Part shown: in pieces, positions 2,101 through 20,879 of the stretch
How positions within the stretch are numbered: position 1 is the first letter of the stretch
How the letters are laid out: every line of letters starts with the position of its first letter
DNA from: Limosilactobacillus avistercoris
GTDB taxonomy: Bacteria; Bacillota; Bacilli; Lactobacillales; Lactobacillaceae
Direction of reading: 5' to 3'
Assembly: GCF_014836425.1 (NCBI RefSeq)
Contig: NZ_JACSQW010000013.1
Location: forward strand, 1 to 50,151
DNA: 50,151 nt
The notes under the pieces: model-generated
The model's input: only the letters and a program-made list of their open reading frames with translations
Database searches by the model: none
What the model was told of the DNA's origin: nothing
Made by a program: the position numbers and the translations under genes

Positions 2101-3783
2101 TCAATATTTCTTGTAGGGAATCCTAATTACATTAATTACTCTTGTAAAGACATAAGCATATACTATAACATTGGCAATAACTGTTATACAGAAAATAGAA
2201 ATAGTTAATAGGCTAGGATTGGATTCAACTTTTAATTTTGAGTTTCCTTCATGAACTAATAGTAAAAATCTTCTATTAGAAAGATTCCTCACTCTCTTAC
2301 CATTTATAAAAATCTTATAATTTATTTTCTTATAAAACGCTAAATTTAGCTTAGATTTCTTTGTCTGCTTGGCTGATAATTTAAAAATTGTGGAATTATA
2401 ATTTGACTTTTTCCATTGTAATTTAGTATTGCTGTCTCCTAATTTATATATTTTGCCTATTTGTGAATCACTACTTTGCGTTCCTCTTCCCGGAAGATAG
2501 TCTTCAAACGATATAATGGGAGAATTATATACATTTCTATTGAAACTATTATTACTTAAAGTAAAATCAATACCGGATCTATCACTATACAATTCAGGTT
2601 GACGGTTTGTTTCTAAGTTAATAATTCCTATAGCTGCAAATATAACTAAGAATATATTCATACTGAAATATATTGTTTTAGAAGTAACACTATTTATATT
2701 CTTTGCACACAAAATAAATGCCAAGAGCACACTCAATACAAAAAAAAATAAAATTCTTCCTTGAAATTGGATAAAGCCAAAATACCTTATTAATTCTTCT
2801 TTATTATTTAACCTATTAACTGGGAAAATAACTAATACGTAAACCACTACTGAGAAAATAACTAATGATCGTAAGTATGGAATTTTCTTCCTAAATGCTT
2901 GAACTATCACCCAAACAAAAATCAATATTGTTATTATCCCAACATTCCAAGTTGTTGATAACATTGTGATAATTAATTTAAACATTGCTCCAAACGCTAA
3001 GCCCTGTTCAACATTAACTAAACTCTTATATGGCATCACAATAGAATTAAATAACCTTATATGCAAAAAGCTATAAATTGAATACATTGATAAAATTATA
3101 GAAAAAATGCTGTCACAGCTATCCATCTTATTTGCCTTCGCTCTATTTTTTTGATAATCATTAAATAAATAGTAACAATTACAACCAAAAAAGATGTTAA
3201 CGCTAAAGAAATAAAATGACTATTTGCAATTCCACTCATTCCAATTGCAAGTAAAAGTATTCCCTTCCTTTTATTATTTTTTAAAATACATAAGTAACCT
3301 GCAACAGCAAGTGGAAGGAATGCATATGCAAGTACCTCTCCAAATGCCATTCTTGCATATAGTAAAATCAAGTGATAAGAGTTAAATATATATATACAAG
3401 AAGCTGAGAAATTCACTAGTTTATTAGAAGATATCTTACTTGCTAATAAGTACATATTTAAACAAGTTACAAGATTAATAAAGAAAAAGCCTAACAAAAA
3501 GCTTACAACAATATTATGAAATAAGAATCTAGGAAAAATAAAAATGATACTAGTTAACCATGGATAACAGCTCATTAATGCATTTAAATTATGTCCTGGT
3601 CCAATAAAGGAAATTTCACTAGGTACTTTCCCTACTTTTAATGATTCATATATCTGTTCAAATCTTCCTAAATGTACCATTCCATCATATATGACCATTT
3701 ACAGCAATTAGGGAACAAATAAATGCCATCATGCATAACCCTAAAAAGGTTAATATATTATATTTACTATTTTCTAAGTTCAT
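2101..3783 (-). pseudogene. Frameshifted YfhO-like multi-spanning membrane protein
   Basis: Three reading-frame pieces join into one protein of about 560 residues. It starts at MNLENSKYNILTFLG (ATG at 3783, AGGTGA ribosome site). The frame is lost near 3686-3693 (VNGHI then YDGMVHLGRF) and again at a run of six T on the minus strand (3102-3107; VTAFF then SIILSMYS). In each case adding one base restores a continuous hydrophobic protein with a C-terminal extracytoplasmic domain and a final membrane segment. The architecture matches the YfhO/GT-C proteins implicated in teichoic acid glycosylation. It is the last gene of the operon. The breaks may be true decay, phase-variable slippage at the T run, or sequencing errors. 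Confidence 0.7.
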
Positions 3784-3794
3784 TTATTAATCAC

Positions 3795-4889
3795 CTATAT
3801 TTTTGTACATTTCTCTAAAAAATTGCTTACTATTCTAGTAATTGAATTGAGCAAATTATTAAAGATGATTCTTCTAGTCATAATATCAATTAAAACGGTA
3901 ATTATAAACACAATAGACGTACAGAGTAATCCAAATAAGAAATATTGAGTACCTGATCCCGCATACAAATTCGATGAAAAAATATTTTGCCAAATGAATG
4001 GCCTAACAAACGAGTCCTCATGAATCAAATAAACACCGAACATTGAACCAGCAATGTAATTGATTATCCTACTATTAAAATGGCTGTTCTTAAAATAAGA
4101 AAATATAAATATAGACGTAAGTAGAACAAGAGGGCTATTTACATCAAATAAGTCAGCAATTCCATTAAAAAGCTTCTCATTAATTGCTAAAGTTGACAAA
4201 AGTATTGCTATCAATACGCATATTATCGCACCAATCATTGTATAGCCTTTGGAATTTAAAATCTTTCCACTATATTTTCTAATATAAGCACTGACAAAGT
4301 ATATTAAAAAGAAATACGTAGTTGGCGTATATCCAAAACTGTCAACAAATGTATCAGGCTTATCATCAAATATTTGTAGGCCAATTGAAAGAAACGACCA
4401 CAATAAAATCAATCCAATTATTAGTAATAATAATTTTTGTCTGGTTAAGTTTCTTATGATGATGTTCAAAAACGGCATTGCAAAAAGCATTACAATATAC
4501 GAATACACAAACCAATATCCACTTGGCAAGGGAAATGGCAGCAATACTCTAACTACACTATCAGTTCCCCATATTCCGGTTGGATCAAATAGCTTAAATA
4601 CCAAATATAATCCAAAACTATAAAATGCTGTAGTAATGATCAAATTTATTGGACGTCTAAAATTAAACTGCTTTTCACATAAAAAGTATGCTCCAATCAT
4701 AACAAAAAGTACTACGCCTAGTTTTCCAAAATAATGAAGGAACAAGTTAACTTTAATTGCACCTGAGTATTTAGGATTGTAAGGATTCCAATCAAAAGTT
4801 CCTTTTAATGCATAGTGATGAAGTACGATCGCAAACATACTTAATATTCTGAGCAATTCAATACTCGAATTACGACTTTTTGCTTTCAA
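3795..4889 (-). CDS. Acyltransferase family 3 membrane protein
   Basis: A 364-residue protein with about ten hydrophobic segments. The family-3 acyltransferase signature is at the N terminus: RNSSIELLRILSMFAIVLHH, where the histidine pair near residues 23-24 is the likely catalytic site. Such proteins move acetyl or other acyl groups onto extracellular glycans or wall polymers; there is no extra SGNH domain. The start is a TTG at 4889 with AGGAGAG five bases upstream, immediately after the stop of the YfhO-like gene. Its place in an operon of choline activation and YfhO proteins suggests it modifies the same surface polymer. The exact acyl donor and target cannot be read from sequence. Confidence 0.85.
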   Translation of the reverse strand: MKAKSRNSSIELLRILSMFAIVLHHYALKGTFDWNPYNPKYSGAIKVNLFLHYFGKLGVVLFVMIGAYFLCEKQFNFRRPINLIITTAFYSFGLYLVFKLFDPTGIWGTDSVVRVLLPFPLPSGYWFVYSYIVMLFAMPFLNIIIRNLTRQKLLLLIIGLILLWSFLSIGLQIFDDKPDTFVDSFGYTPTTYFFLIYFVSAYIRKYSGKILNSKGYTMIGAIICVLIAILLSTLAINEKLFNGIADLFDVNSPLVLLTSIFIFSYFKNSHFNSRIINYIAGSMFGVYLIHEDSFVRPFIWQNIFSSNLYAGSGTQYFLFGLLCTSIVFIITVLIDIMTRRIIFNNLLNSITRIVSNFLEKCTKI

Positions 4890-6596
4890 TTATTCTCTCC
4901 TGTAACTTCTAATAACTGGTATTAACATAAATAATATTGATATAAACGAAATAATAAGGAGGATCTTATATACCCTAGGCATTATAAATCGTATATCTAT
5001 TTTCATAGAATTCATCTTAATATCTGCATTATTAATTACCATATTCCCTTGTTTATTAACCTTATATTGCACTTTTTTATTATTCAAAGCAATATGATAA
5101 TCTAAGCTTCGATAACCCAAAATAGGTAATTCAATATTTACCCCTTTTTGTCTTTTTATGTTTTTTACATAAAAACTTAGATTTTGCTCACCTATCTTTT
5201 CTACAAAGTCATATGATTTATTTTCTACTTTAATCTTTTGATTCCATATTTGATCCAATCTAGATGGCAATAATTCGTATTTTCTATTCTTTACATTCTC
5301 TACCTTAGGAAAGTAGTCTGGATGTTCTCCCATAGCCATAATAGTCTTTTTTTGCTCTGAAGCTATAGGAGTAGTGGCCATTATCTGTGCAATAACATCA
5401 TTATTTAACCTTAAAACTTGACCACTTATTAAATAAGACTGTGCAGAAATACTCAAAATTACTGATAAAAGTGCCAAAATATGACTAATTTTAATTCCAA
5501 TAAATTGCTGATAGTCCTTAAAATTATCAGCAAACATAATAATTGGAATTACTGAAAGCCATATTCCAAACCGCCACGGAGTATACTGTAAATTGTTAAT
5601 TAATGGAACATGATTAAATGCTTTCCATGGAAAAATCTTTAAACAAAGGATAAACATGTATCCTTCTAGGATCGACAATCTAATTAATTTACTTTTCATA
5701 TTCGAATTAAAAAAGCAATATACAACTATTAATAGTACCAATGCAGCGATAGATAGTTGTTCCCGCGACCACCATGAAATAAAATTTAGCATTTTCGGTA
5801 AAGTGGCGGCTTTTATATGTCCCTTACCAAAAGGTTCTAATATACCCGAACTAGATATTTTCAAAACACGATATATAATTGGGGACATCCCAACTAAGAC
5901 TAACGGAAAGCTTAAGAAAGCATTAACAAAAAAAGATATACTAATTTTCTTTTGAAAAATCCGAAATAAAACAACACTTCCTAAAAGAAAGCCATATACT
6001 ATTAAACTAAGTAAATGTGAAAATCCTATAAGAATAATACAGAGTGAGAACTTACAAATTAAGGTAATGTCAATTTTCTTTGAACCTAATAGTTCTTTAC
6101 TAACAAAGAAAATTGGAAAGACAAAAATATTTATTATTGCAGCACTAGGTTGAATTTCATTTAAGAATTGATACAAAGTATATCCTGAAAAGGTGTAGAT
6201 CGTAGCAAGGTAAAATGACATTTCAATATTATTTGTCCTGATACTCAAGCAAAGCCAAGTAACAATTAATGTAAGGAAAAATATCAAGAAACTAATCGCT
6301 ACAACTTGATGTTGTGGAGATAAGAAAATAGTTATGAGTACCAAAGGCCATAGGGTAATGTCTGGATACATCCCATTAACTGCTTGTCCTATTTCAAAAA
6401 AGGTAGAAAAATTTACCCAACTAGGCATCTGTAAGTGTAAAAAAGCATTACGAATTTCAAGAATACGCTGAACATGAAAGATCCCGTCGCCAAATAACTT
6501 TACCCCTCCATTAAATTGACATTCAGCTGAATATATATAAAACATCATTAAAACTATAAGCAACGTCCCAATTCTTATTTGTCTTGTTTTTCCCAT
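4890..6596 (-). CDS. YfhO-like GT-C membrane protein
   Basis: About 568 residues with a dozen hydrophobic segments, an acidic first outer loop (KLFGDGIFHVQRILE) typical of GT-C glycosyltransferases, and a C-terminal extracytoplasmic beta-rich part before a last membrane helix. YfhO relatives add sugars from lipid-linked donors to lipoteichoic acid outside the membrane. I chose the ATG at 6596 (MGKTRQIRIG), which has AGGGAAG six bases upstream. An ATG at 6614, overlapping the transporter stop, is also possible and would add six residues. It is co-transcribed with the BCCT transporter before it and the acyltransferase after it. The sugar and the acceptor are unknown. Confidence 0.75.
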   Translation of the reverse strand: MGKTRQIRIGTLLIVLMMFYIYSAECQFNGGVKLFGDGIFHVQRILEIRNAFLHLQMPSWVNFSTFFEIGQAVNGMYPDITLWPLVLITIFLSPQHQVVAISFLIFFLTLIVTWLCLSIRTNNIEMSFYLATIYTFSGYTLYQFLNEIQPSAAIINIFVFPIFFVSKELLGSKKIDITLICKFSLCIILIGFSHLLSLIVYGFLLGSVVLFRIFQKKISISFFVNAFLSFPLVLVGMSPIIYRVLKISSSGILEPFGKGHIKAATLPKMLNFISWWSREQLSIAALVLLIVVYCFFNSNMKSKLIRLSILEGYMFILCLKIFPWKAFNHVPLINNLQYTPWRFGIWLSVIPIIMFADNFKDYQQFIGIKISHILALLSVILSISAQSYLISGQVLRLNNDVIAQIMATTPIASEQKKTIMAMGEHPDYFPKVENVKNRKYELLPSRLDQIWNQKIKVENKSYDFVEKIGEQNLSFYVKNIKRQKGVNIELPILGYRSLDYHIALNNKKVQYKVNKQGNMVINNADIKMNSMKIDIRFIMPRVYKILLIISFISILFMLIPVIRSYRRE

Positions 6597-6606
6597 GTTT
6601 TCTTCC

Positions 6607-8097
6607 CTAAGCATGATTCCTACTCTCCCTATAAAACCCAACCACAATCATAATCATCACAATCATTGTTGGTAGTGCTGCAATAATTGCTACCGATTGA
6701 ATATTATCCATATTACTATTACTGATTAATAGCGCCATTGGTAATACCATGAATATCACCGCCCAAAAGCCTCGAATTGCTTTACTAGGTTCTTCCTCAA
6801 TTGCCAGCTGTTTATACGAATATTTAGAGATAACCATAGTAATGGAATCAAACACTGTCGAATACAAGCCAATCATTGCTAAAGCCAAAAGAACCAAGGC
6901 AATGCGATACTGGGGCAAAGTTTCCATTAGCTTAATAGCTACTTGGGAGTAGTTTTGACCATCTGATATTAATTGGGTAGCGTTGATTAACCCTTTAACT
7001 TGCCGCGACATCCCAAAACTACTTAACACAATGAAAGCACAAAAGGTTCCACCTAGTCCCCAAACATAACCGCGTAAAATGACATCCTTAATTGTCCGTC
7101 CCCGACTAATACTACCAATAAAAAATGGCGTGGCCACACACCAAACAATCCAATATGACCAGTAGTAGATTGTCCAGTTTTGGGTAAAACTATGGCTATG
7201 AGTTGTCGTCGCCATCCCAATGAAATTTTGGGTTAAATTACCTACTGCCTGGACACCGGCATCGACAATGTAACTAAAAGAACCGCTGAAAAGTAAAACA
7301 TAGAGTAATAAACCAATAAAGAAGACATAACAAATCGTACTTAACCGCGAAATTGCTTTCATTCCAATTACTGAAGCAATCAAATAAATTGAAACAACCA
7401 CGCAAATTAAAATAATCGATAGTTGTTTGACCTGATGGATCCTAAAAAGGACACCAACCGTTTGTGACAATAAAGGCATCGACATCGAGAAAGTTGTCGC
7501 TGTTCCTGCGATCAAAGCAAAGATCGCAATCAGATCAATCAATTTTCCCGCTATGCCATCAGTATATTTACCCAGTAATGGTCGACAGGCTTCTGAAAAT
7601 TTCTGTCGTTTGTTTTTGGTCACATATAGCATATAGGCAAATGCCACCGCCAACATTAAATAAAATGACCAGGCAATCGGGCCCCAATGAAATAACGAAT
7701 AAGTTAACGACCATTCCATCGTTGTCCCTTTTTGCTTGATAAACGGCTCACTGGAATACATTAACCATTCACATAAGGCGTAAAAGATAATATCAGCTGA
7801 CATGGTCGAAGTAAAAATCATGACTCCCCAGCAAAGGTTTGAATATTCAGATTTGTCTGTTGAATCACCGAGCTTGATTCGGCCAATCCTTGAAAAAGCA
7901 GCGTACAGCGTACTGATAAAAAAGAACAATCCCACCAAAATATAGAGAAACGATAATTGATTATTTAGGAATGACCGAATGCCTTCCAAAATGAGTTGTG
8001 AATTTTTGGGGAAGCGTTCTAATAAAAAACTCAGGCCAAAAACAACAATAATCGGAATAGTAACTAAGGACCAGTCAATTTGTTTATACTTTTTCAC
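6607..8097 (-). CDS. BCCT-family transporter, probably choline uptake
   Basis: A 496-residue protein with 12 predicted membrane helices. The BCCT signature spans residues 308-340 (WTIYYWSYWIVW, then PFFIGSISRGRTIK). BCCT carriers import choline, betaine or carnitine with ions. The glycine-rich motif usual in helix 3 is replaced by TSTMSADIIFYALCEW, so this is a divergent subgroup whose substrate cannot be read from motifs. Context argues for choline: the gene starts at a GTG four bases after the stop of a LicC-type gene and follows a choline kinase domain. The ribosome site (AGAGGA) lies inside the end of licC. It would take the place of LicB, the choline permease of classical lic1 operons. 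Confidence 0.85.
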   Translation of the reverse strand: MKKYKQIDWSLVTIPIIVVFGLSFLLERFPKNSQLILEGIRSFLNNQLSFLYILVGLFFFISTLYAAFSRIGRIKLGDSTDKSEYSNLCWGVMIFTSTMSADIIFYALCEWLMYSSEPFIKQKGTTMEWSLTYSLFHWGPIAWSFYLMLAVAFAYMLYVTKNKRQKFSEACRPLLGKYTDGIAGKLIDLIAIFALIAGTATTFSMSMPLLSQTVGVLFRIHQVKQLSIILICVVVSIYLIASVIGMKAISRLSTICYVFFIGLLLYVLLFSGSFSYIVDAGVQAVGNLTQNFIGMATTTHSHSFTQNWTIYYWSYWIVWCVATPFFIGSISRGRTIKDVILRGYVWGLGGTFCAFIVLSSFGMSRQVKGLINATQLISDGQNYSQVAIKLMETLPQYRIALVLLALAMIGLYSTVFDSITMVISKYSYKQLAIEEEPSKAIRGFWAVIFMVLPMALLISNSNMDNIQSVAIIAALPTMIVMIMIVVGFYRESRNHA

Positions 8098-8101
8098 GAT
8101 C

Positions 8102-8815
8102 CTATCCTCTCTTTGTCAGCCGCTGATCAACCTGTTTCAATTGGTCGACACTATCAATTTCGATAATATCATTAGCCGCAATTGGCATTACATATAACGA
8201 AAACTCATCAAAGTAATCAAACATAGCAATATCATCCCAGTAAATATCATAATGATGAGCATGTTCAAACTCTGCTTCTAAGTAGCCTTTCAGACGCAGA
8301 CTATCTTCCGCTTGCCATTTTGATAGGCTATATAAGCGCCAACCATGATCATTTCCTGAACGGTCGCATTGTAAGATCTTACCATTTTGATCGGGATGCA
8401 TAATCCATTCATCAGTAAACTGATCAATCTTTGCTCCAGCATATCCAGAATGGGTAAACTCCCTCTTTAATAATTTTGGATTCATTACTAACTGATCGCC
8501 ATCGAGGATTACCGTGTTTTTTAATTCATTACGAGCCACATACAATGATGAGATATTATTGTACTGGTTATAGTACGGATTATTAATCAGCTTCACACCT
8601 GGATACTTTTCTCCCAGATAATTAAATTGCTTGGCTAAATAACCGACAACAATTGAAATATCATAAATTCCATTTTGGTGCAGTCCTTCAATTACTGATT
8701 CGACCATTGGCTTCCCCGCAACCCTAATTAGCGGTTTAGGTGTTTTATAGGTTAACGGACGCATCCGGGTGCCTAAGCCCGCTGCCATAATAATTGCGTT
8801 TTCTATTTCTGCCAT
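8102..8815 (-). CDS. licC: LicC-like phosphocholine cytidylyltransferase
   Basis: A 237-residue single-domain nucleotidyltransferase. The N-terminal signature MAAGLGTRMRP...TPKPL (residues 10-29) is the nucleotide-binding loop of the LicC/MobA-like fold. An LDGDQ acidic motif near residues 104-108 should bind the metal. LicC enzymes make CDP-choline from CTP and phosphocholine, the activated donor for LicD. The gene starts one base after the stop of the upstream fusion gene (TAAGATG) and ends four bases before the transporter start, so the three are translationally coupled. A second cytidylyltransferase domain in the preceding gene raises the possibility that one of the two uses another alcohol phosphate, such as ethanolamine or glycerol. 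The activity class is firm; the substrate is inferred from context. Confidence 0.82.
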   Translation of the reverse strand: MAEIENAIIMAAGLGTRMRPLTYKTPKPLIRVAGKPMVESVIEGLHQNGIYDISIVVGYLAKQFNYLGEKYPGVKLINNPYYNQYNNISSLYVARNELKNTVILDGDQLVMNPKLLKREFTHSGYAGAKIDQFTDEWIMHPDQNGKILQCDRSGNDHGWRLYSLSKWQAEDSLRLKGYLEAEFEHAHHYDIYWDDIAMFDYFDEFSLYVMPIAANDIIEIDSVDQLKQVDQRLTKRG

Positions 8816-8816
8816 C

Positions 8817-10697: not shown

Positions 10698-11735
10698 ATG
10701 ATTAAATTTGTTGCATCTCACCTCTCTGGAAATGGTGGGACTGAAACCGTGTTAGTCCCAGTACTCAATCATTTTGCTAAAAGTAACTCTGTCGAACTAG
10801 TTATTTTCGGAACTCCCGATAATGATTATTGGTTAAGTAAGTTAAATTCTAATGTAAAAGTTAAAACGATAAATTATTCAGGTAAATTTTCGGAGCTACT
10901 CTCTTTCACACAAGAAGCTTTTTCTATTAAGAAAAATGACCTTCTTATTTCACTTAGCCCATCATTTATTAAACTTTCTTCACTACTTCGGAAAGCGAAG
11001 TTATCAAATTTTAAAATAATTTCCTGGATTCACTTTTCTCTAGTTGATCAAGATCTTTTCAATCCGCATGACATCACATATGCAGACTATCATTTAGCAA
11101 TCAGTAATAAAATTAAGAAACAATTAGTAAGTTTAGGAGTGTCAGAAAAAAATGTCGCGGTGATTTATAATCCTATCAAGCAAGAACATATTTGGCACTC
11201 CCAGCAACATAATGGGGTTAATATTGCCTATATTGGTCGTATCTCTTTTAAGGGCCAAAAAAATCTGAAAGAACTTTTTGACGGTTTGAAAAATTCTTCT
11301 AATACTAGCCTATTCATTATTGGTAATGGTTCAAAAGAAGAAGTAGCAAAATGTAAGAACTATATCGACAAAAATCAAATTACTTCAAAAGTTACTTGGG
11401 CTGGCTGGCAAAAAGATCCGTGGCATTATCTTGAAGATAAGAACATCGATGGAACAATTTTAACTTCCAACTTTGAAGGTTTACCAATGGTTTTCTTAGA
11501 GTCAATTTCTCGTGGTATACCAGTTATTTCTAGTCAATTTGACGGTTACGACGATGTTGTTAAAGACGGGATTAATGGTTTTTCCTATGAACCAGGCAAT
11601 ATTGATAAACTCACTAAAATAATTAGTAAAATTAAAGATATTAAAGACAAAAAGAAAACTCAAAATAGTATTAATGAATTCTATAATGATAATTATTTCG
11701 CTAAACTAGATGATATTATTAAGAAAATATATTAA
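10698..11735 (+). CDS. GT4-family glycosyltransferase
   Basis: A 345-residue cytoplasmic glycosyltransferase of the GT-B fold. The C-terminal donor-binding region is clear: SNFEGLPMVFLESISRGIPV near residues 254-273, where the Glu-x7-Glu spacing binds the nucleotide sugar. The N-terminal half begins with a Gly-rich loop (SHLSGNGGTETV). It probably adds one sugar to a lipid-linked wall glycan. It is the only plus-strand gene in the decoration region, has its own promoter, is divergent from the choline operon and ends in a shared terminator with the operon-2 GT4 gene. The sugar specificity cannot be stated. Confidence 0.85.
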   Translation: MIKFVASHLSGNGGTETVLVPVLNHFAKSNSVELVIFGTPDNDYWLSKLNSNVKVKTINYSGKFSELLSFTQEAFSIKKNDLLISLSPSFIKLSSLLRKAKLSNFKIISWIHFSLVDQDLFNPHDITYADYHLAISNKIKKQLVSLGVSEKNVAVIYNPIKQEHIWHSQQHNGVNIAYIGRISFKGQKNLKELFDGLKNSSNTSLFIIGNGSKEEVAKCKNYIDKNQITSKVTWAGWQKDPWHYLEDKNIDGTILTSNFEGLPMVFLESISRGIPVISSQFDGYDDVVKDGINGFSYEPGNIDKLTKIISKIKDIKDKKKTQNSINEFYNDNYFAKLDDIIKKIY

Positions 11736-11774
11736 AAAGTTGATGTAACGGAACTTTTCCTTACATCAACTTTT
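11735..11774. terminator. Bidirectional terminator between convergent glycosyltransferase genes
   Basis: A perfect 14-bp stem (AAAAGTTGATGTAA with TTACATCAACTTTT) and a 12-base loop. A-runs and T-runs flank both sides, so it can serve both genes. Its right arm includes the last codons of the minus-strand gene. Confidence 0.85.
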
Positions 11775-12864
11775 CTATATCTTCAGCTTGACGATCAACA
11801 CTAAATTTCTCCAGATTACTATCGAGATAATCACGGTTCTTATCCTGGCTTAATGAACCTTCCAACTCACTAGCCCATTTAGCAACGTCCAACCCATGCA
11901 TCTTCTTAATATTACTTGTCGCGAATATGTCCTCAACATTAGTATCCGAAGCTAAAATTTGCAGATTACTAATTTGTGATTCTAAAGCTACTAACGATAA
12001 TCCTTCATACATACTTGGAAAAAGCAAGGCATCCATTGCTGAGTACCAACGATTAACATCAGCAATAAAATCGTATTGAATAACACTATCTCTAATTCCT
12101 AGTAACTGAATTTTTTCATTAATTTGCTCTTTTAATGGTCCCTTTCCCAGCATCAAAAATACACTATTCGGATTTGACTTGTGATAATCTGCAAATACTT
12201 CTAATGCAAAAAGCGGATTTTTGCGGTCTTGAAGGACTCCAACAAAGCCGACTAATTTTGTCTGAGTATCAATATTTAACTTATTCCGAATGTCTTCTCT
12301 GTTCTCCATTGAAAAAGAGAATTTAGGGATGTCAATTCCGTTAATACTAATAAATACATCATTGTCTTCATTAAACATCCATCTTGCCGCTTCCTTTGAG
12401 GTAGCAATTTTTTGATCAGAGTATTTATTAAATACTTTTTTTCCATGATTATTAACTGCCACTAAAGTTTTCATCAATAATCTGTTAGAAAACTCATGAC
12501 TAAAATAAGAATTATGCGAATGGCACACTACTTTTTTTACTTTTCCATACCGTTTAGCATAAATTACGGGAAGATAATTCCAAGAAGACGAATAATTAAA
12601 GTAAACAATGTCATAGTGATGCTCTTTAAAGAAAGCTTTCCACCATTCCCAGTGTTCAATTGGGTTCTTGGTAACCGGGATAACTCGCTCAAACTGCCAT
12701 CCCAACTTTTCACATTTTTTGTCAGTTAAATTTTCAGGATCAGTTCCGTAACCTACGGCATCAATTTTATATTTTATAGGATCAAATCGACTAAACACGT
12801 TAAAAATAACCTGCGTTAAACCACTACCACTAATAAAATCCCCAACAACCAGAACTCTTTTCAT
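11761..12864 (-). CDS. GT4-family glycosyltransferase (EpsF-like)
   Basis: A 367-residue GT-B fold protein. The N-terminal loop GDFISGSGLTQV and the C-terminal PSMYEGLSLVALESQ motif (near residues 277-291) are typical of EpsF-like GT4 enzymes of exopolysaccharide clusters. It is the third and last gene of the licD operon, 19 bases downstream of the GT14 gene, so its product probably helps build or branch the glycan that LicD decorates. The donor sugar is unknown. The stop codon lies inside the shared terminator. Confidence 0.85.
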   Translation of the reverse strand: MKRVLVVGDFISGSGLTQVIFNVFSRFDPIKYKIDAVGYGTDPENLTDKKCEKLGWQFERVIPVTKNPIEHWEWWKAFFKEHHYDIVYFNYSSSWNYLPVIYAKRYGKVKKVVCHSHNSYFSHEFSNRLLMKTLVAVNNHGKKVFNKYSDQKIATSKEAARWMFNEDNDVFISINGIDIPKFSFSMENREDIRNKLNIDTQTKLVGFVGVLQDRKNPLFALEVFADYHKSNPNSVFLMLGKGPLKEQINEKIQLLGIRDSVIQYDFIADVNRWYSAMDALLFPSMYEGLSLVALESQISNLQILASDTNVEDIFATSNIKKMHGLDVAKWASELEGSLSQDKNRDYLDSNLEKFSVDRQAEDIEKLM

Positions 12865-12883: not shown

Positions 12884-13741
12884 TTAAGGTAATAATTGTC
12901 TTAGTTTATCTGAATAAGGACTCTCGAATTTTCTACCAAACATTGCATTACTTTTCTTAATTGCTTCATAGTCTCGCTCGTCCAAAATTGCAGGAAAGCT
13001 ATTATGAATATGCTCCCACTTAATAAACCGATGGTAATCATACTGCAATCGTGATTTAAATTGTGGAGTATTACAAATAATTGTCTGTACCCAGAATTCA
13101 TCAGAGAAACTCCCGGTTTTTAACATCTTACGGAAATTTTCATGGTTATCAAAATAATCCAGACAATATTCGACCGCATCACGCGGTAAATCACACCAAT
13201 TAGCTCCTGTATAGATTTCAAGATCGATTCCTAATTTTTTTAACTTATTTACTCTCAATAAGCTTTGAACCCAGGTGCTTAAACGATTGTAGACTTTACC
13301 AAACAAAGAGTGACGATCTATTTTATCGTAATTATAGTAAAACTTTTGCCAATTAAGGGCATTGTCACGTCCCTTTTTTACGTCAGCTTTATAATACCGT
13401 AAATAGATATTATTATTTTCCTCATAAAAATTCTTAATCTCTTCAACTGGCTTCAAAGGCCAATCTTGTCCAGAAATCAAGTGGACATAATCAATTTCTG
13501 TATCTTGCATTGCCCGATGCATTAATTCAACTGCAACTTGCCCAATTGACCAACTTCCCCAATTAACACTAATTTTTGAAAAATAATCCACACCTAATTG
13601 TTGAAGCTTCTGTTTTTGCGCTTCTGAAACTGGTGTTTTCTTGTCAAAATGAATAATTACTTTAAATGTTGGTCTAAGTTTTTTGGATAATTCAATAACC
13701 TGATCAATATCTTTATGAGCGATAATTAGTACTGCTTGCAT
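12884..13741 (-). CDS. GT14-type (core-2 branching) glycosyltransferase
   Basis: A 285-residue protein that starts with the Branch/GT14 pattern MQAVLIIAHKD. It has the family's IHFDKK near residue 31 and HLISGQDWPL near residue 87, followed by an aromatic-rich region. Bacterial members are annotated as beta-1,6-N-acetylglucosaminyltransferase-like and usually lie in surface polysaccharide loci. It is the middle gene between licD (18 bases upstream) and a GT4 gene. A plausible role is to add a branch sugar that then receives phosphocholine, but neither donor nor acceptor can be read from sequence. Confidence 0.8.
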   Translation of the reverse strand: MQAVLIIAHKDIDQVIELSKKLRPTFKVIIHFDKKTPVSEAQKQKLQQLGVDYFSKISVNWGSWSIGQVAVELMHRAMQDTEIDYVHLISGQDWPLKPVEEIKNFYEENNNIYLRYYKADVKKGRDNALNWQKFYYNYDKIDRHSLFGKVYNRLSTWVQSLLRVNKLKKLGIDLEIYTGANWCDLPRDAVEYCLDYFDNHENFRKMLKTGSFSDEFWVQTIICNTPQFKSRLQYDYHRFIKWEHIHNSFPAILDERDYEAIKKSNAMFGRKFESPYSDKLRQLLP

Positions 13742-13759: not shown

Positions 13760-14566
13760 TTATCTAAGCCATGCTTGTAGGTTATGGTTAACTTGTTTAC
13801 TTTTTGGTGGAATTTCCATGTAATCATTACCATAAAGTTCAGTTAAATATCTATCCCAACAAGCAAAGGTATCGAATGTGTAATCCTCAAAGGTAACCTT
13901 ATTGGATTTAAAATATTCTTCGACAGTTAAAATTTCTTTACCATAATCTCCCCAAAGGACATCACCAATTAGCCCCGTCTTATGGTAATCATAGCTCTGG
14001 GAAAGCTTTGATAATTGATTATTTGCTCTTTTAAGCCCATATAATTTAGCAAGTGGGATCAATGGTGTCTTAAGGACTTTCTTAGCAAAACTTCGCCCCT
14101 GCCCTGGTTTGGCAAAGCTTAACATTAAAATCTCACGGATAGTTGATATCTTCTTGTAAAGTTGCTTTTGTTGTTTTTCATCATCTGGTAACCCATCCAT
14201 TGGGAAAACATCAATCCATAAATAGTCAGCCACATCATTACCAAATTGTTGACTCATCTTTGTCCGTAAATCAATGACTTTAATATATGGGTAGTTCGAA
14301 TCACCAAACTGAAAATCAATCACCTTATAATATTTATGGAATACTGGATTTTTCTTTGCAATACTTACTAACCGATTGTAGCTTTCACGGTCCATGCACA
14401 CATCAATGTCATCATCCCAAGGAATAAAGCCATGGTGACGGACCGCACCTAATAATGTCCCCGCACATAAGTACATTATTAAATCATTTTGCTTACAAAA
14501 TTGATCAAAATTAACCAAGATATCTAGTAAATATTGTTTAACTTCTTTTCGTGTTAATTGTTTCAT
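13760..14566 (-). CDS. licD: LicD-family phosphotransferase (phosphocholine transfer)
   Basis: A 268-residue protein with the LicD signature at residues 36-55: GTLLGAVRHHGFIPWDDDID, whose acidic cluster binds metal and nucleotide. LicD enzymes move phosphocholine, or in some cases other alditol phosphates, from a CDP donor onto a glycan sugar. It is the first gene of operon 2, behind a strong promoter at 14601-14629, with AGGA before the ATG. Two glycosyltransferase genes follow closely. Together with the LicA and LicC domains and the BCCT transporter 3-6 kb away it completes a lic1-type set. Substrate identity rests on this context. Family assignment is firm. Confidence 0.9.
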   Translation of the reverse strand: MKQLTRKEVKQYLLDILVNFDQFCKQNDLIMYLCAGTLLGAVRHHGFIPWDDDIDVCMDRESYNRLVSIAKKNPVFHKYYKVIDFQFGDSNYPYIKVIDLRTKMSQQFGNDVADYLWIDVFPMDGLPDDEKQQKQLYKKISTIREILMLSFAKPGQGRSFAKKVLKTPLIPLAKLYGLKRANNQLSKLSQSYDYHKTGLIGDVLWGDYGKEILTVEEYFKSNKVTFEDYTFDTFACWDRYLTELYGNDYMEIPPKSKQVNHNLQAWLR

Positions 14567-14629: not shown

Positions 14630-14633
14630 TTTA

Positions 14634-14673: not shown

Positions 14674-14679
14674 AACGAA

Positions 14680-16791
14680 TTAATCAACTGTAATTGCTTG
14701 TCCCGCATATTCACGAGCAAATTGAGCGGTTGTGATCCAACCTTTTGCACCATAATCATATGCATTCCAACCAAATGAACCTTGATTAGCGTAATTGTAA
14801 CAAGGATCAAAGATCCGGAACCAACCATTTTGATAACCAACAATTACCTTACAGTGGTTTCTTGCCCAGTAAGTATTTTCATATCTGGAGTAACCATAAT
14901 ATTCAACTGGATGACCTGAATTAATGATATTAATAATATCCTGAACACTGCTTCCTGAAATGTTCCGAACTGAAGAATCAAAGTGATGAGCAAGATCTAC
15001 TAAAGAATCTGGTTGAATAACTAGTCTAAAACCAGCACCTGTATAAATGTTACCTGATTGACGTGGTTGTAATAAGTTCAATGCATATCCCATATTAATA
15101 TATTCCTTAGGACTTAATAGCATTGCTAATGAATAAACTGAACATCCCTCAGCAACTGGAAATTGACTATACCATTGTGGGAACCATAAACGACCACTAT
15201 TATCAGCATGGTATGTCCAGCCATTAACATTTACCCAGCGATTTTGGTATAAATTAGCATTAACCGGATCAAAGTAATACTCAATCCCATTGATAATATG
15301 ATATCCAGTATCAGCCCAAGCATTAACTAAATCAAAGAAATACCAACTACCATTGATTAGATGCCAATTAGTCCAAGCAAAGGCATTAACATTATCAAAG
15401 TAATACCAAGCATTATTAATCTTTTGCCAACCAGTTAAGGCATTAGCATTGTTATTATCAAAGTAGTACCAGAAACCTGCCGCTGACTTATACCAGCCAG
15501 TGTGTGCCCAAGCGTTTGTTGGATCGAGGTAGTACCAGAAGCCTGCTTGAGTCTTAAACCAACCAGTATCCGCTGAAGCATTAGTATTATTAAAGTGATA
15601 CCACTTATTATTAAGCTTTTGCCAACCAAGAAGGCTTGCTCCATCATTGTTGAAGTAGTACCAAAAACCTGCCGGTGACTTGAACCAACCAATAGAAGCT
15701 GTTCCATCATTGTTGAAATGATACCAAGAACCATTTAGTTTTTGCCAGCTATTAAAGGCAAAGCTGTTTGCACTTCGATTGTAATAATAGACATGACCAG
15801 CGATTTGATTTAACCCATCATTAAGAGTAGTAGTATCAATCACTCCAGTTAATGGATTGAACTTATAGGTGTGACCATTCACCGTAAGTTCAGTTTGCCG
15901 AATACCGGTACTTGGATCGTAATACTTTAATAGCTTAGTATTAGCATCAACTAACATTCCCTTTAATTGATGCCCAGATGCGGGATCGAAGTAATAGTAA
16001 TTACCACTAATTAAAGTATCACCGGTTGCCATTTGCGCATTTTCTGGTTTGAAGTAATAAGTGTTACCATCAAGGTTTTGCCAACCAAGATATGCACTAC
16101 CATCACCTTTGAAACTATACCAATGACCGTCAACATACTGCCAACCAGTCTTCATTGCACCAAGTGTTCCATCTGCCTTACCATTCAGGTAATAGAAATT
16201 ATTGTTAATCTTCTGAATACCACTTTCTAGAACTGCGGTTTCTGGATTCATATAATACCAATTACCATGAAGATAGTTCCAGCCAGTATATGCACTACCA
16301 TCGCCTTTAAAGCCATACCAGTTACCATCAACATACTGCCAACCAGTCTTCATTGCACCATACGTACCATCATGTTGTTCGTTTAGGTAGTAGGTTTTAT
16401 TATTAATCTTTTGAATTCCAGTTTCCATCTTGGCGTTATCTGGATTCATGTAGTACCAGTTATTATCAATGTTTTGCCAATCTTTATTTTGATTACCATT
16501 ATTAAAGTGGTACCAATCATTGCCAGTGGTTTGCCAACCATTTGCATTTTGGCCACTAGTATTCTTCCAAGTACCATTTTGATTCGTATAACCGTTAATG
16601 TTAGTAGTTATATTTGAATCATTAGACTTGTCATTATTACCTAAAAAGTACTCGTTTTGAGTCGAGGTGACGTCAGTATTATCGGAAGCAGATGCTTGGT
16701 TCAAATTAGCTGAAACTGCAAATGATAACACAGCAACCGCTGCAGTAACCCAAAGCTTTCCTGATTTATAAAGCTTAAAATGTTTTTTCAT
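14680..16791 (-). CDS. Secreted C39-like cysteine peptidase with choline/glucan-binding repeats
   Basis: 703 residues. The N terminus is a KxYKxGKxW signal peptide (KLYKSGKLW, then a hydrophobic stretch to about residue 35). Residues 60-540 carry about twenty repeats of the CW-binding type (pattern GWxxxxxxWYYFDxxNAxAxT), as in choline-binding and glucan-binding proteins. Residues 547-703 form a peptidase C39-like domain with candidate Cys550 (AEGCSVYSLAML), His646 (RNHCKVIVGY) and Asp662 (FDP). Domain members are thought to cleave peptides, possibly in the wall; the substrate is unknown. It is transcribed away from the GH25 gene and has its own terminator. The repeats could hold it to phosphocholine on the wall polymer, or to alpha-glucan. 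Confidence 0.85.
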   Translation of the reverse strand: MKKHFKLYKSGKLWVTAAVAVLSFAVSANLNQASASDNTDVTSTQNEYFLGNNDKSNDSNITTNINGYTNQNGTWKNTSGQNANGWQTTGNDWYHFNNGNQNKDWQNIDNNWYYMNPDNAKMETGIQKINNKTYYLNEQHDGTYGAMKTGWQYVDGNWYGFKGDGSAYTGWNYLHGNWYYMNPETAVLESGIQKINNNFYYLNGKADGTLGAMKTGWQYVDGHWYSFKGDGSAYLGWQNLDGNTYYFKPENAQMATGDTLISGNYYYFDPASGHQLKGMLVDANTKLLKYYDPSTGIRQTELTVNGHTYKFNPLTGVIDTTTLNDGLNQIAGHVYYYNRSANSFAFNSWQKLNGSWYHFNNDGTASIGWFKSPAGFWYYFNNDGASLLGWQKLNNKWYHFNNTNASADTGWFKTQAGFWYYLDPTNAWAHTGWYKSAAGFWYYFDNNNANALTGWQKINNAWYYFDNVNAFAWTNWHLINGSWYFFDLVNAWADTGYHIINGIEYYFDPVNANLYQNRWVNVNGWTYHADNSGRLWFPQWYSQFPVAEGCSVYSLAMLLSPKEYINMGYALNLLQPRQSGNIYTGAGFRLVIQPDSLVDLAHHFDSSVRNISGSSVQDIINIINSGHPVEYYGYSRYENTYWARNHCKVIVGYQNGWFRIFDPCYNYANQGSFGWNAYDYGAKGWITTAQFAREYAGQAITVD

Positions 16792-16973
16792 AATTACCTT
16801 CCCAAATAAAAATAATTTAACACTAGTAATATATCACTATTTTTTATTTCTTCCTACACGTTAATCATAAAAAAATTACAATTTGTTAACAGATCTTAAT
16901 ATTATTGAAATTAAACAATTAGTATTAGGAATTATAATAGTTATCGTTATATAAATTTTTTAGGAGGATTATA

Positions 16974-19085
16974 GTGACTCAGAAGAACCATATCTATCTT
17001 GCTTCAACATTAACATTATTATCTTTATCAACCTCGTTATATTTAAATTCTAAAAACGTTCAAGCTGATACTAATCAGGTACAGACCGAACAAGTAAATT
17101 CAAATGACAATTTAAGTGCTAATTCCGCTTCAACACAAAGTCAAAGCGCCCCTTCAGCAAGTACTTTTGCTACTAGTTCTAATAATGTAGCTAGTGAAAG
17201 CACTGCTGAATCAACGCAATCATTAAGTATTAACAGTCAAAATTCGGCTGCTCCTGCAACTGCATATACGACCGTAAAGGCAGCTGCACAAACTGCTTAT
17301 GATGGCACACCAGTAATCAATATTGGTGACGCTAACTACCCTCGAGTAGATGCTGTTGATATTAGTGGTTATCAAGCTAGTATGACTCCTAATAATTTTG
17401 TTACCTTAAAAAATCTCGGAGTTAAAACAGCAATTGTTAAGGTTACTGAAGGAACCTACTATATTAATCGATATGCTGGTCAACAAATTAATTATGCTAA
17501 AAATGCTGGCTTAAATGTTCAAGTGTATCACTATGCCAAATTTGGCAGCCAGGGTGCTGCTATCAATGAGGCTAACTATTTAGCAAATGAAATGGAAGCC
17601 TTAGGACTAGATAAAAACACCTTAATTTATGCTGACATGGAAGATACAACTACCAAATATTACGGAGTTGCTAATCATTTAAATGCTTTCTGGAATCAAT
17701 TAAATAATCGTGGCTTTACTAACCACGCAGTCTATGCCTCAACTTCTTATGATCAAACTTATAATGTTAGTTCAACAGTCGGGAAAAACCGTACTTGGAT
17801 TGCCCAATACCTTTATTCACCATCTTCAGCTAACCTAAGGAACCAGAACTATGGAGCATGGCAGTTTAACGCCCATGGGCGCATCCCTGGATATAATGGT
17901 GACTTAGATATTTCGATCGATTATCAAGGGTTAGTAGCTAACTCAGGTGAATGGTCTAACAATAATGGAAAATGGTCATATTCAATTAATGGCAATAATG
18001 TTACTGGCTGGCAACGAATAAATAATAACTGGTACTACTTCAATCAAGATGGCACCGCGCAAACTGGCTGGTATCAATCAGGTGCTGGCAACTGGTATTA
18101 CTTTGACTATACTAATGCCTGGGCTTTGACTGGTTGGCAATATATTAATAATAATTGGTATTACTTTGATTACAGTAATGCATGGGCTGACAAGGGCTGG
18201 CAGAACATCAATAATAATTGGTATTACTTCGATCTAACAAATGCTTGGGCGCTGCGTGGTTGGCAAACAATTAACGGTAATCGTTATTACTTTGACCCTA
18301 GTAACGTTTGGGCACTCAAAGGATTTCAATATTTAGACAATGCTTGGTATTATTTTGATGATAGTAATGCCTGGTTGAGTCATGGTTGGCGCTACAATGG
18401 TGGACAATGGTATTACTTAAGTCCAAGTACTGGTCAATTAGAAAGTGGTCTTCAAACAATTAACGGCAAAGTTTACTATCTTCAGCCAAACCACAATGGC
18501 TACTTTGGTGCAATGCAGACTGGCTGGTTTAACTTGAACAGTCACTGGTACTTCTTTAATAATGGTGGTGATGCTGCTACCGGATGGTTTAAATCTCCAG
18601 CTGGCTGGTGGTACTACTTTGATGATAATGGTCAAGCACGTACTGGTTGGCAAACCATCAATGGACATCAATATTACTTTGATCCTACCAATGCTTCTAA
18701 TTATAGAGGTTGGTACCGTCATAATAATAGTTGGTACTACTTTGACACTGCTAATGCCTGGGCAGTTACTGGATGGTTTAAATCACCAGGTGGCTGGTGG
18801 TACTATTTTGACAATGATGGTCGTGCACGAACTGGCTGGCAAACCATTAATAATCACAAATATTACTTTGATCTAACTAATGCAAGTGCTTATACAAACT
18901 GGCAAAAATTAGATGGTAAATGGTACTACTTCGATCCAAATAACGCTTGGACCCTAACAGGTTGGCAAAATATTAATGGACATCGGTATTACTTTGATAA
19001 CGATGGGCATGCTGTAACTGGCTACCAATATATTGATGGTAAACTTTATCATTTTGATCAGGATAATGCATGGCTATTAGATTAA
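16974..19085 (+). CDS. Secreted GH25 muramidase with choline/glucan-binding repeats
   Basis: 703 residues. It has an ordinary signal peptide (to about residue 31, VQA-DT), a Ser/Thr/Asn-rich linker to about 110, and a GH25 lysozyme domain at about 124-317 with DAVDIS (Asp126/Asp129), catalytic-type DMED (221-224) and the AWQF strand. About eighteen CW-binding repeats follow to the C terminus (GWQxINxxWYYFDxxNAWA). GH25 enzymes cut the MurNAc-GlcNAc bond of peptidoglycan. The layout, hydrolase followed by C-terminal repeats, resembles pneumococcal choline-binding lysozymes such as LytC or phage Cpl-1. The start is a GTG with a perfect AGGAGG six bases upstream. Unlike its two neighbours it lacks the KxYKxGKxW motif. 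Confidence 0.92.
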   Translation: MTQKNHIYLASTLTLLSLSTSLYLNSKNVQADTNQVQTEQVNSNDNLSANSASTQSQSAPSASTFATSSNNVASESTAESTQSLSINSQNSAAPATAYTTVKAAAQTAYDGTPVINIGDANYPRVDAVDISGYQASMTPNNFVTLKNLGVKTAIVKVTEGTYYINRYAGQQINYAKNAGLNVQVYHYAKFGSQGAAINEANYLANEMEALGLDKNTLIYADMEDTTTKYYGVANHLNAFWNQLNNRGFTNHAVYASTSYDQTYNVSSTVGKNRTWIAQYLYSPSSANLRNQNYGAWQFNAHGRIPGYNGDLDISIDYQGLVANSGEWSNNNGKWSYSINGNNVTGWQRINNNWYYFNQDGTAQTGWYQSGAGNWYYFDYTNAWALTGWQYINNNWYYFDYSNAWADKGWQNINNNWYYFDLTNAWALRGWQTINGNRYYFDPSNVWALKGFQYLDNAWYYFDDSNAWLSHGWRYNGGQWYYLSPSTGQLESGLQTINGKVYYLQPNHNGYFGAMQTGWFNLNSHWYFFNNGGDAATGWFKSPAGWWYYFDDNGQARTGWQTINGHQYYFDPTNASNYRGWYRHNNSWYYFDTANAWAVTGWFKSPGGWWYYFDNDGRARTGWQTINNHKYYFDLTNASAYTNWQKLDGKWYYFDPNNAWTLTGWQNINGHRYYFDNDGHAVTGYQYIDGKLYHFDQDNAWLLD

Positions 19086-19166: not shown

Positions 19167-19208
19167 AAACAAAAAACCGATAATTAGCTTTCTCGCTAAC
19201 TATCAGTT
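19167..19208 (-). terminator. Terminator of the M23 gene
   Basis: A 14-pair stem (19175-19188 with 19195-19208; the two DNA mismatches become G-U pairs on the minus strand) is followed by TTTTGTTT. Confidence 0.75.
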
Positions 19209-19241
19209 CGTTATACCTAATCAAATATCAGATTAATTAAA

Positions 19242-20879
19242 TTATAGTCCTTCACGAATAATTTTCTGAGGATCTAACCAAGTCCCGTTATTAATAAATG
19301 AACTAGCTAAAGCACGGTTAAAATTGTGATCTCGGGTAATACCAATGTGGACGTGTGAAGTATCACGAATACCAATAACATCCCCAGTACTGATCTGTTG
19401 TCCCTCATGAACGAGAATATTATTCTTGCTGGAGAATGCCTCTTGATAAACAACTAGATATTTACCAGTATCAACTACGGCATACCAACTTAATCCGGAA
19501 CCATATCCGACAATCTTAACAGTACCACCGTGAATAGCATGTACTTCTCTACCTGGATGATCAATTGAACCAAAGTCTAAGCCATCATGAAAACCATTTA
19601 ATCGGAATTCACCACCGGCATGAACACCAAATAATTGTCCGCCACCAAAGTAACCTTCACCATCTTGAGGGAATGGCCAATCCCAACCATCAGCCCAAGA
19701 GCCATTAGAATTAAAGGTATAAGTCTTGCCATTAATCTCTTGAGTACCAGTTAACATCCAAGCATTAGTTGGATCCATGTAATACCATTTACCATTGATT
19801 TTTTGCCAACCGGTATCCGCCCAGGCGTTATCCCAATTAAAATGGTACCAATGATTATTGATGTACTGCCAATCTCGTAAACCACTAGCATTATTCCAAT
19901 CAAAATAATACCAACGACCATCTATACTTTGCCAACCACGTAAACCACTAGCACTATTTTGGTTAAAGTAGTACCAGAAGCCTGCTGCTGACTTATACCA
20001 ACCAGTATGGGCCCAAGCATTTTCTGGATCTAAATAGTACCAAAAACCCGCTGGTGTTTTAAACCAACCGGTATCTGCAGAAGAATTAACTTCATCAAAA
20101 TGGTACCATTTGTTATTAATTTTCTGCCAACCCTTTGCACCATTGGCACTATTTTGATCGAAGTAATACCAAAAACCTGCTGCCGACTTGTACCAGCCTG
20201 TATGAGCCCAAGCATTTTCTGGATCTAAATAGTACCAAAAACTTGCAGCACTTTGATACCAACCGGTATCAGCAGATGCATTAACCTCATCAAAGTGATA
20301 CCACTTATTGTTGATATTTTGCCAGCCGGTCCGTGATTGACCATCATTATCAAAGTAATACCACCAACCAGCCGGTGATTCAAACCAACCTGTTTGTGCA
20401 GTTCCATCTTCTTTAATATAATGCCAATTATCATTTACTTTTTGCCAACCAGTATTTTTTACATCTGATTGAGCAGAAATATCACTAGCCTGATTATTTA
20501 AATCAGCTGCATCGATATTATTAGAGCTTTGAGAACTAGCATTTACTTGATTAGTTGTATTCACTACAACCTTACTTTGAGCAAATGAGGTTTCAGTATT
20601 GATATTTTGATTTTTTTGGGTTGCAGCAGCTTGAGCACTTGCAACTGAGGCACTAGCAGAATTGCTATTTTCATTATTAGCAATAGTCAAAGTTGTACTT
20701 TGAGAAGCATTACTTTCTGCTGTGGTTTGAGTTTGCGTAGTTTGGATCTGATTATTAGTCGTATCAGCATGAACATGCTTTACTTGTGTTCCAGCAATAA
20801 AACCGATCGAAACAATCGCTGCTGTAATCCATTGCTTTCCTGACTTGTAAAGTTTAAATCTTTTCTTGCGACTATTCAA
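19242..20879 (-). CDS. Secreted M23 peptidase-like protein with choline/glucan-binding repeats
   Basis: 545 residues. A KxYKxGKxW signal peptide (KLYKSGKQW) ends near residue 39, followed by a Ser/Gln/Asn/Ala-rich linker to about 140. About twelve CW-binding repeats follow (140-400), then an M23 (LytM/lysostaphin-like) domain at about 414-545. Zn ligands are present: His431 and Asp435 (HDGLD) and His511 of HVH (509-511). The usual Tyr-x-His-Leu catalytic His is replaced by YQEAF (478-482), so activity may be altered. The start is a TTG at 20879; AGGAGG lies 11 bases upstream, and an in-frame stop excludes an earlier start. It is third of three adjacent repeat proteins with different hydrolase domains. 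Confidence 0.87.
   Translation of the reverse strand: MNSRKKRFKLYKSGKQWITAAIVSIGFIAGTQVKHVHADTTNNQIQTTQTQTTAESNASQSTTLTIANNENSNSASASVASAQAAATQKNQNINTETSFAQSKVVVNTTNQVNASSQSSNNIDAADLNNQASDISAQSDVKNTGWQKVNDNWHYIKEDGTAQTGWFESPAGWWYYFDNDGQSRTGWQNINNKWYHFDEVNASADTGWYQSAASFWYYLDPENAWAHTGWYKSAAGFWYYFDQNSANGAKGWQKINNKWYHFDEVNSSADTGWFKTPAGFWYYLDPENAWAHTGWYKSAAGFWYYFNQNSASGLRGWQSIDGRWYYFDWNNASGLRDWQYINNHWYHFNWDNAWADTGWQKINGKWYYMDPTNAWMLTGTQEINGKTYTFNSNGSWADGWDWPFPQDGEGYFGGGQLFGVHAGGEFRLNGFHDGLDFGSIDHPGREVHAIHGGTVKIVGYGSGLSWYAVVDTGKYLVVYQEAFSSKNNILVHEGQQISTGDVIGIRDTSHVHIGITRDHNFNRALASSFINNGTWLDPQKIIREGL

Follow-up and report, generated by a model that had tools for sequence, protein, structure and literature searches.

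The window analysed here is a 50,151-nucleotide stretch of Limosilactobacillus avistercoris (contig NZ_JACSQW010000013.1, our contig C4 of a 1.80 Mb genome that is 99.99% complete), and it carries a set of lic-type genes interleaved with genes for exported repeat proteins. On the minus strand these encode, in order, a BCCT-family carrier, a stand-alone LicC-type cytidylyltransferase, a fusion of a helix-turn-helix (HTH) domain with LicC- and LicA-type domains, two glycosyltransferases (one of them on the plus strand), a branching-type transferase, a LicD-family phosphotransferase and three repeat proteins (the one with a GH25 domain on the plus strand) (Table 1). In pneumococcus, LicA, LicB, LicC and LicD put phosphocholine on teichoic acid, and choline-binding proteins dock on it via repeats. 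We conclude that the locus in the window probably attaches phosphocholine to a surface polysaccharide (writing) and that enzymes of the same cell then bind to it (reading). Below, a genome with the HTH-LicC-LicA fusion is called a writer, and the repeat proteins are called readers.

A candidate phosphocholine pathway with a fused choline kinase

The fusion combines, by Pfam, a winged HTH domain (PF13412, 5e-6), an NTP transferase domain (PF12804, 1e-12) and a kinase domain matched by both Choline_kinase (5e-15) and APH (7e-16). Comparison of its LicA domain with pneumococcal LicA at 16 ligand and catalytic positions, as given in PMC4364537, revealed that 10 are identical (T29, E89, D176, N181, D194, E196, Y197, W251, W254 and Y268). 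These include all four residues of the aromatic choline pocket (Y197, W251, W254 and Y268) and the catalytic residues T29, D176, N181, D194 and E196. LicC (1jyk) was the best nucleotidyltransferase match in the PDB for both LicC-type domains, the one in the middle of the fusion and the stand-alone protein. The BCCT carrier, a putative choline importer, reached no betaine/choline equivalog model of NCBIfam. No LicB-type permease lies in the locus, where the carrier is of the BCCT type; LicB was not sought in the remaining genome. A preliminary description of this DNA had named the LicA motifs HIDANADN and IDWEYAG, two LicC-type domains, a BCCT carrier and LicD, and all of these were recovered. 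A classical LicABCD system is not supported: BCCT replaces LicB, and LicA forms a single protein with an HTH and a LicC domain. The N-terminal winged helix of the fusion is related to a model of MarR-type regulators associated with exopolysaccharide (EPS), at 26 bits and thus below the cut-off of 88, and this domain may connect choline use to transcription.

Relatives of the fusion were found at 376 places in our genome collection, from which 80 loci were kept, some truncated by contig ends. In these loci from other genomes the fusion was accompanied by a LicC relative in 72 of 80 and by a BCCT relative in 68 of 80, and the three-gene module is widespread in gut Firmicutes. In a tree of the fusion (91 rows, built by a quick method, with 37 of 86 inner branches left open), the proteins of Limosilactobacillus and some Lactobacillus came together in a single 16-member group (SH-aLRT 96). 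Those of L. ruminis and L. delbrueckii were placed elsewhere, and seven rows from five distant family members fell far outside. This split placement suggests that the fusion was gained more than once in the family. One further licCA locus, which shares 83% identity with the window across 4 kb, lies on a contig filed under Candidatus Avacholeplasma (L074), which is probably a misbinned lactobacillus contig.

Three exported proteins carry repeats with the tryptophans of the choline cage

The three exported proteins carry Choline_bind_3/Choline_bind_1 repeats. With the reader unit defined as W-x(5..8)-W-[YF]-[YHF], we counted 10 W..WYY-type units in each; 1000 residue shuffles per protein gave mean counts of 0.12-0.21 and a maximum of 4. 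The pneumococcal choline-binding repeat has the consensus TGW..(K,Q)DNGSWYYLN, as quoted in PMC4929436, and the residues of its choline cage, the tryptophans W1 and W2 together with the tyrosine, are present in the 10 units of each reader. Fold comparison revealed that the repeats fit the solenoid fold of CbpF, CbpJ and LytA; families missing from the matches of this search are not thereby excluded. The long wall-binding repeats first noticed in these proteins are therefore there, and of the three secreted hydrolases proposed beside licD, the GH25 and M23 enzymes are firm by family and the C39-like one is likely (Pfam 2e-7).

Across the genomes examined, the repeat module is fused to GH25, M23, C39-like, NlpC/P60, Amidase_5, GH53 and GH70 domains. 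A module common to enzymes of such unrelated substrates fits what an anchor would look like, and a general anchor is what it looks like here. A second cluster, on contig C6 of the same genome (L152:6163-20000), holds at least five repeat proteins, including ones with NlpC/P60, Amidase_5 and beta-lactamase-like domains and two in which no domain other than the repeats was recognised (one of these is truncated where the stretch ends). Genome G041 encodes a GH53 enzyme (L162:3406-7476) and, adjoining it, a GH70 glucansucrase (7467-11615), both with a KxYKxGKxW signal and choline-type repeats.

Readers co-occur with the kinase fusion in the genus and the family

We examined co-occurrence of writer and reader genes in 50 genomes of the genus and in 396 genomes of the Lactobacillaceae. 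Eight of the 50 genus genomes gave a strong fusion match. licD was present in 10, namely all eight writers and 2 of 42 non-writers (G015 and G038). In G015, which is without the kinase fusion, licD lies in two pieces (G015:C28, L180), which suggests decay after loss of the pathway.

A plain count of Choline_bind_3 matches was too blunt to tell readers apart, as 44 of the 50 genomes had a match and non-writers reached 47 (G004) and 50 (G042); the W..W signature separates them. A DNA pattern requiring G before W missed the mucosae-type readers, which a W-x6-WYY pattern finds in G032. With the latter, the eight writers gave 54, 52, 113, 151, 61, 40, 8 and 2 hits, the 8 of G032 agreeing with the eight units present in a single protein whose gene lies between licCA and licD. 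Non-writers gave 0-6 hits in 41 genomes and 36 in G042, and a backward control pattern reached up to 6. At a cut of 8 hits, readers were present in 7 of 8 writers versus 1 of 42 non-writers (Fisher p 6e-7, kinship ignored), a co-occurrence of the kind that the preliminary description had proposed to survey. The genome assembly of the single non-writer, G042, has a completeness of 86%, and contig C14 in it begins inside the locus, at the equivalent of window position 16673; licD and the fusion would thus fall off the end of this contig.

Across the family, 17 of 396 genomes had a fusion match at E <= 1e-30. The W-x6-WYY pattern had a background of up to 10 hits at this scale, which makes writers with few repeats invisible. 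The seven genomes with more than 10 hits (G000, G013, G047, G048, G072, G108 and G138) all lie within the 17 writers (p 7e-11, kinship ignored). A stricter GW pattern picked out the same seven, with 12 or more hits versus at most 4 elsewhere. The patterns catch some W..W repeats poorly: in L. ruminis (G106) and in G214, W..W repeat proteins adjoin the fusion when the loci are read, though the pattern counts are at background. G072, G108 and G138 belong to another genus, and their loci (L211, L212 and L209) hold a far-diverged kinase fusion with LicC and repeat proteins, as well as genes related to the flippase, priming transferase, DUF4422 protein and glf of the window; in G072 a LicD is also within reach. 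By sequence these loci are the same assembly with a different writer lineage.

Writer and reader genes also lie close together. A repeat protein with at least three W..W units occurred within 10 kb in 27 of 80 writer loci (19 of the 41 loci longer than 20 kb), and in none of 22 regions of non-writer genomes that had been selected for their hits to repeats, GH70 or LicD. Reader genes stand directly beside licD in the window and in G032. In the fetched regions, after proteins with fewer than 4 scored repeats had been dropped, a W1 preceded by G was present together with W2 in 395 of 613 scored repeats from writers and G042 (55 proteins), versus 0 of 60 in non-writers (9 proteins). The mucosae-type pair G026 and G032 gave 0 of 10, their W1 not being preceded by G or their proteins being of another kind.

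A prophage endolysin bears the same repeat

On contig C44 of the same genome, a prophage stretch encodes tail proteins, a holin and a GH25 endolysin (L215:9102-10235) that bears three W..WYY units. In its catalytic half this endolysin shares 83% identity with that of L. fermentum phage LfeSau, and the match ends where the repeats begin. Among 28 endolysin relatives from viral contigs, one carries the repeats (94% identity over the full length) and 24 could be read and are without them (one of these ends early); the remainder are two that are cut short and one that has no readable frame. Near relatives of this half on other viral contigs end in a C-terminal part of a different kind, and the repeat module of the prophage endolysin was therefore probably swapped. 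The bare repeat region matched 146 phage records, none of them from a Lactobacillus phage. The combination of GH25 with repeats is like that of the pneumococcal phage lysozyme Cpl-1 (27% match).

The lic genes belong to a polysaccharide cluster

Beyond the readers, polysaccharide-type genes continue with a flippase, glf, transferases and a Wzz-like and a polymerase-like protein, as far as the priming sugar transferase at 28847-29554. The lic genes thus belong to a polysaccharide cluster. Its DUF4422 protein is presumably a glycosyltransferase. No teichoic acid backbone genes were recognised among 30 proteins of the window that were scanned with Pfam, several of which have no Pfam match at all; one Glyphos_transf gene lies elsewhere in the genome (G000:C34). 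Because the cluster is without recognised backbone genes and this one gene lies elsewhere, the predicted polymer is more likely to be a Wzx/Wzy-type polysaccharide than a standard teichoic acid. The original proposal that the bacterium makes a phosphocholine-bearing polymer and anchors its own hydrolases to it is supported in part, by the co-occurrence and the cage tryptophans. A teichoic acid polymer is unsupported, the gene context looking Wzx/Wzy-type with glf.

Positions 5167-18656 match a Limosilactobacillus portuensis contig at 95% nucleotide identity over 13.5 kb, and L. vaginalis matches this part at 92% over 8.7 kb of matched stretches. On the other flank, two overlapping minus-strand frames (2101-3126 and 3096-3698) look like a single large membrane protein split by a frame change; their similarity to DUF6541/PTPS_related is weak and non-significant, and the L. 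vaginalis region was compared without a long nucleotide match. A scan of the window for repeats of the kind that drives phase variation found nine arrays, five of them inside the repeat proteins and none in licC, licD or the BCCT gene. The kinase fusion gene holds one imperfect two-copy 19-base array, and the scan reported no short tetranucleotide-type runs.

Table 1. Genes of the lic and polysaccharide region, with positions in the window and best supporting matches (TM, transmembrane)
Feature	Position	Strand	Support
Membrane acyltransferase adjoining the lic genes	3795..4889	-	PF01757 2.7e-23
Large membrane protein	4890..6647	-	9 TM-like segments, no significant Pfam match
BCCT-family carrier, putative choline importer	6607..8097	-	PF02028 1.9e-113; TIGR00842 391 bits, cut-off 408
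Stand-alone LicC-type CTP:phosphocholine cytidylyltransferase	8102..8815	-	best PDB match 1jyk 3.8e-43
HTH-LicC-LicA fusion, 578 amino acids	8817..10553	-	Pfam; PDB 4r77 (LicA) 4.5e-33, 1jyk (LicC) 7.9e-30
GT4-type glycosyltransferase	10698..11735	+	PF00534 2.9e-27
GT4-type glycosyltransferase	11761..12864	-	PF00534 1.1e-19
Core-2/I-branching type glycosyltransferase	12884..13741	-	PF02485 3e-18
LicD-family phosphotransferase, putative phosphocholine transferase	13760..14566	-	PF04991 1e-42, 147 bits, cut-off 22.6
Exported repeat protein, KxYKxGKxW signal, C39-like peptidase; repeats ~15292-16536	14680..16791	-	PF19127 5.8e-51, PF13529 2.1e-7, PF19258 1.7e-12
Exported GH25 lysozyme; GH25 ~17355-17891, repeats ~18003-19082	16974..19085	+	PF01183 9.5e-33, PF19127 4.6e-67
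Exported repeat protein, KxYKxGKxW signal, M23 peptidase; repeats ~19665-20453	19242..20879	-	
Wzx-type flippase	21015..22436	-	PF01943 1.4e-22; PDB 9xzn 2.8e-22
glf, UDP-galactopyranose mutase	22443..23561	-	PF03275 6.9e-87
Glycosyltransferase-like protein (weak)	24251..25267	-	PF13439 E 0.0077, under cut-off
Wzz-like chain-length protein (weak)	25274..25918	-	PF02706 E 0.063, not significant; hydrophobic ends
Multi-pass membrane protein; resembles a Wzy polymerase only in topology and position	25911..27113	-	8 TM-like segments, no Pfam match
GT2 glycosyltransferase	27130..28059	-	PF00535 1.2e-30
DUF4422 protein	28075..28860	-	PF14393 7.3e-92
Priming bacterial sugar transferase	28847..29554	-	PF02397 3.5e-72

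Evidence against the proposed system and alternative explanations

Several observations weigh against a locus that writes phosphocholine and reads it. In the kinase domain, Q31, N32, K45 (R here), T96, V178 and E213 differ from pneumococcal LicA, and E213, which faces the choline ammonium, is Y in the fusion. The sole NCBIfam match of LicD is the cholinephosphotransferase Mf1, at 86 bits versus a cut-off of 225; PF04991 includes transferases of other phosphodiesters, and the specificity of LicD is unreadable from sequence. Among the 17 family writers, 10 do not exceed the pattern background, and G108 and G138 align with the fusion in the kinase half only, at 31% identity. L. mucosae DSM 13345 (G026) is a writer that appears to be reader-free: ~3.2 kb that hold the reader in G032 are missing (L171:1-1256 vs L167). 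An assembly gap was considered as the cause and rejected, since the contig ends point to real absence, and writer and reader therefore appear separable. PDB sequence and fold searches with the readers match clostridial toxin and glucansucrase repeats besides choline-binding repeats, and because all are matched alike, the fold cannot decide the ligand. The flippase matches at E <= 1e-60 in 219 of the 396 family genomes, mostly non-writers, and the non-writers G027, G028 and G011 have relatives that are 78-79% identical. In the PDB its sole match (E up to 1) is TacF, a flippase for teichoic acid (9xzn). We had considered the flippase as a TacF-like mark of choline and dropped this idea on account of the close relatives in many non-writers, which point to an ordinary Wzx-type flippase of the family rather than a sign of choline.

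The writer could instead modify something that the repeats do not see, for example a glycolipid, as Mf1 does, or could transfer phosphoethanolamine in place of phosphocholine, with the repeats binding another part of the wall. The Mf1 match and the breadth of the LicD family fit this, as does the flippase (and so perhaps the polymer) being common in non-writers, and Mf1 of Mycoplasma fermentans accepts CDP-ethanolamine too (PMC11982090). licD is, however, embedded in a polysaccharide cluster with readers adjoining it in two genomes, and the aromatic pocket of LicA is kept, so we regard this explanation as unlikely.

A second possibility is that phosphocholine is displayed mainly for host mimicry and that the repeat proteins are held otherwise, for example by their catalytic domains or by lipoteichoic acid. 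Phosphocholine display aids host interaction in other bacteria, according to PMC10434233, and L. mucosae DSM 13345 retains the writer without readers. Yet readers are numerous in most genus writers (40-151 hits in 6 of 8) and scarce in non-writers, and the resident prophage endolysin bears the same repeat, which makes this explanation very unlikely.

Finally, the repeats could bind alpha-glucan or another plain polysaccharide, with the phosphocholine pathway beside them by accident, an option that the preliminary description had also raised. Glucansucrases bear repeats of the same Pfam families, glucansucrase structures are among the fold matches, and the GH70 enzymes of writers G022 and G041 carry 11 and 12 W..WYY units. 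GH70 is present in 10 of 50 genus genomes and absent from the window's genome (G000) as well as from G013, G047 and G048; these four repeat-rich writers are among the six richest. The glucan-binding repeats of Limosilactobacillus GH70 enzymes share the Pfam superfamily and solenoid fold of the readers, but those of non-writers lack the W..WYY pair: none of 9 GH70 enzymes from 8 non-writers has such a unit (both G006 enzymes are truncated at contig ends, and the G049 enzyme has an internal stop), versus 2 of 2 in writers, where the two enzymes may share one ancestor, so that one or two events are counted. The distribution of GH70 and the repeat type disfavour glucan binding. The repeats also track the writer genes, both within the genus and across the family, and they occur on peptidoglycan hydrolases and on a phage endolysin, which makes this explanation very unlikely.

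Discussion

The analysis shows directly which genes are present and to which families they belong, that catalytic and cage residues are conserved, and that writer and reader genes co-occur and lie close together. From this we infer choline on the wall, the substrates of the enzymes, the polymer and the binding of choline by the readers. In the system that we propose, choline would enter via the BCCT carrier and be phosphorylated by the kinase domain of the HTH-LicC-LicA fusion, and the LicC domains would make CDP-choline. LicD would then move phosphocholine onto a lipid-linked sugar unit made by the neighbouring glycosyltransferases. This unit would be exported by the Wzx-type flippase and polymerised in a Wzy-like step, the flippase and polymer steps being the least certain. 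Enzymes with W..WYY repeats (C39-like, GH25 and M23 in the window; NlpC/P60, Amidase_5 and others elsewhere in the genome) would dock on the choline and act at the wall.

Phosphocholine walls with choline-held enzymes are textbook knowledge for pneumococcus and its kin. Like the pneumococcal lic system, the window encodes a choline kinase, a cytidylyltransferase, a LicD and exported enzymes, GH25 among them, that bear W..WYY repeats. The same genome has a phage lysin that joins GH25 to repeats. TacF is the only PDB match of the window's flippase, which has relatives in many non-writers. Unlike in pneumococcus, LicA is one protein with an HTH and a LicC domain and has a second LicC as its neighbour, BCCT takes the place of LicB, the readers lie inside the writer locus, several of the proteins have KxYKxGKxW signals, and no backbone genes are seen in the cluster. 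The HTH-LicC-LicA, LicC and BCCT modules of gut Firmicutes have the same three-gene core, to which a W..W repeat protein within 10 kb is added in about a third of the loci; the window interleaves readers and licD.

An EPS with phosphocholine has been reported for Clostridium immunis, another gut Firmicute (PMC12355684), and the product proposed here would likewise be an EPS-type polymer bearing phosphocholine; the passage concerned names no reader proteins. CbpA of Ligilactobacillus salivarius REN is described in PMC5345100 as a surface protein with choline-binding-type repeats and an M23 domain, and shares both with a reader of the window; its anchoring to choline is there taken from the motif. 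licD has been noted in a Lacticaseibacillus paracasei strain, in a passage without a phosphocholine measurement (PMC12681685), and choline kinase inhibitors have been proposed for testing on autolysis of dairy lactic acid bacteria (PMC5745463). In the text available to us, the 26-species survey of PMC10434233 has no word beginning 'lactobac'. No report demonstrating phosphocholine on a lactobacillus was found in the literature searched, outside which subscription journals largely lay.

We further propose, tentatively, that choline from the host or diet may serve as a general docking tag for extracellular enzymes. Autolysins, and with them sugar-processing enzymes such as the GH70 glucansucrase and the galactanase-type GH53 enzyme of G041, would be held by a single exchangeable repeat module on a phosphocholine-bearing Wzy-type polysaccharide, the supply of choline would set their retention versus release, and phages would have had to adopt this module.

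The phosphocholine epitope is recognised by natural anti-phosphocholine antibodies, C-reactive protein and the platelet-activating factor (PAF) receptor. If the proposed system is real, harmless resident lactobacilli may display this epitope to those host factors, and choline could control lactobacillus autolysis and surface enzymes. The co-occurrence also yields a testable rule, by which presence of the kinase fusion predicts the type of wall-binding repeat, and this helps to interpret many proteins that go under loose names such as 'glucan-binding' or 'choline-binding'. An arrangement familiar chiefly from pneumococcus can now be tested directly in a commensal.

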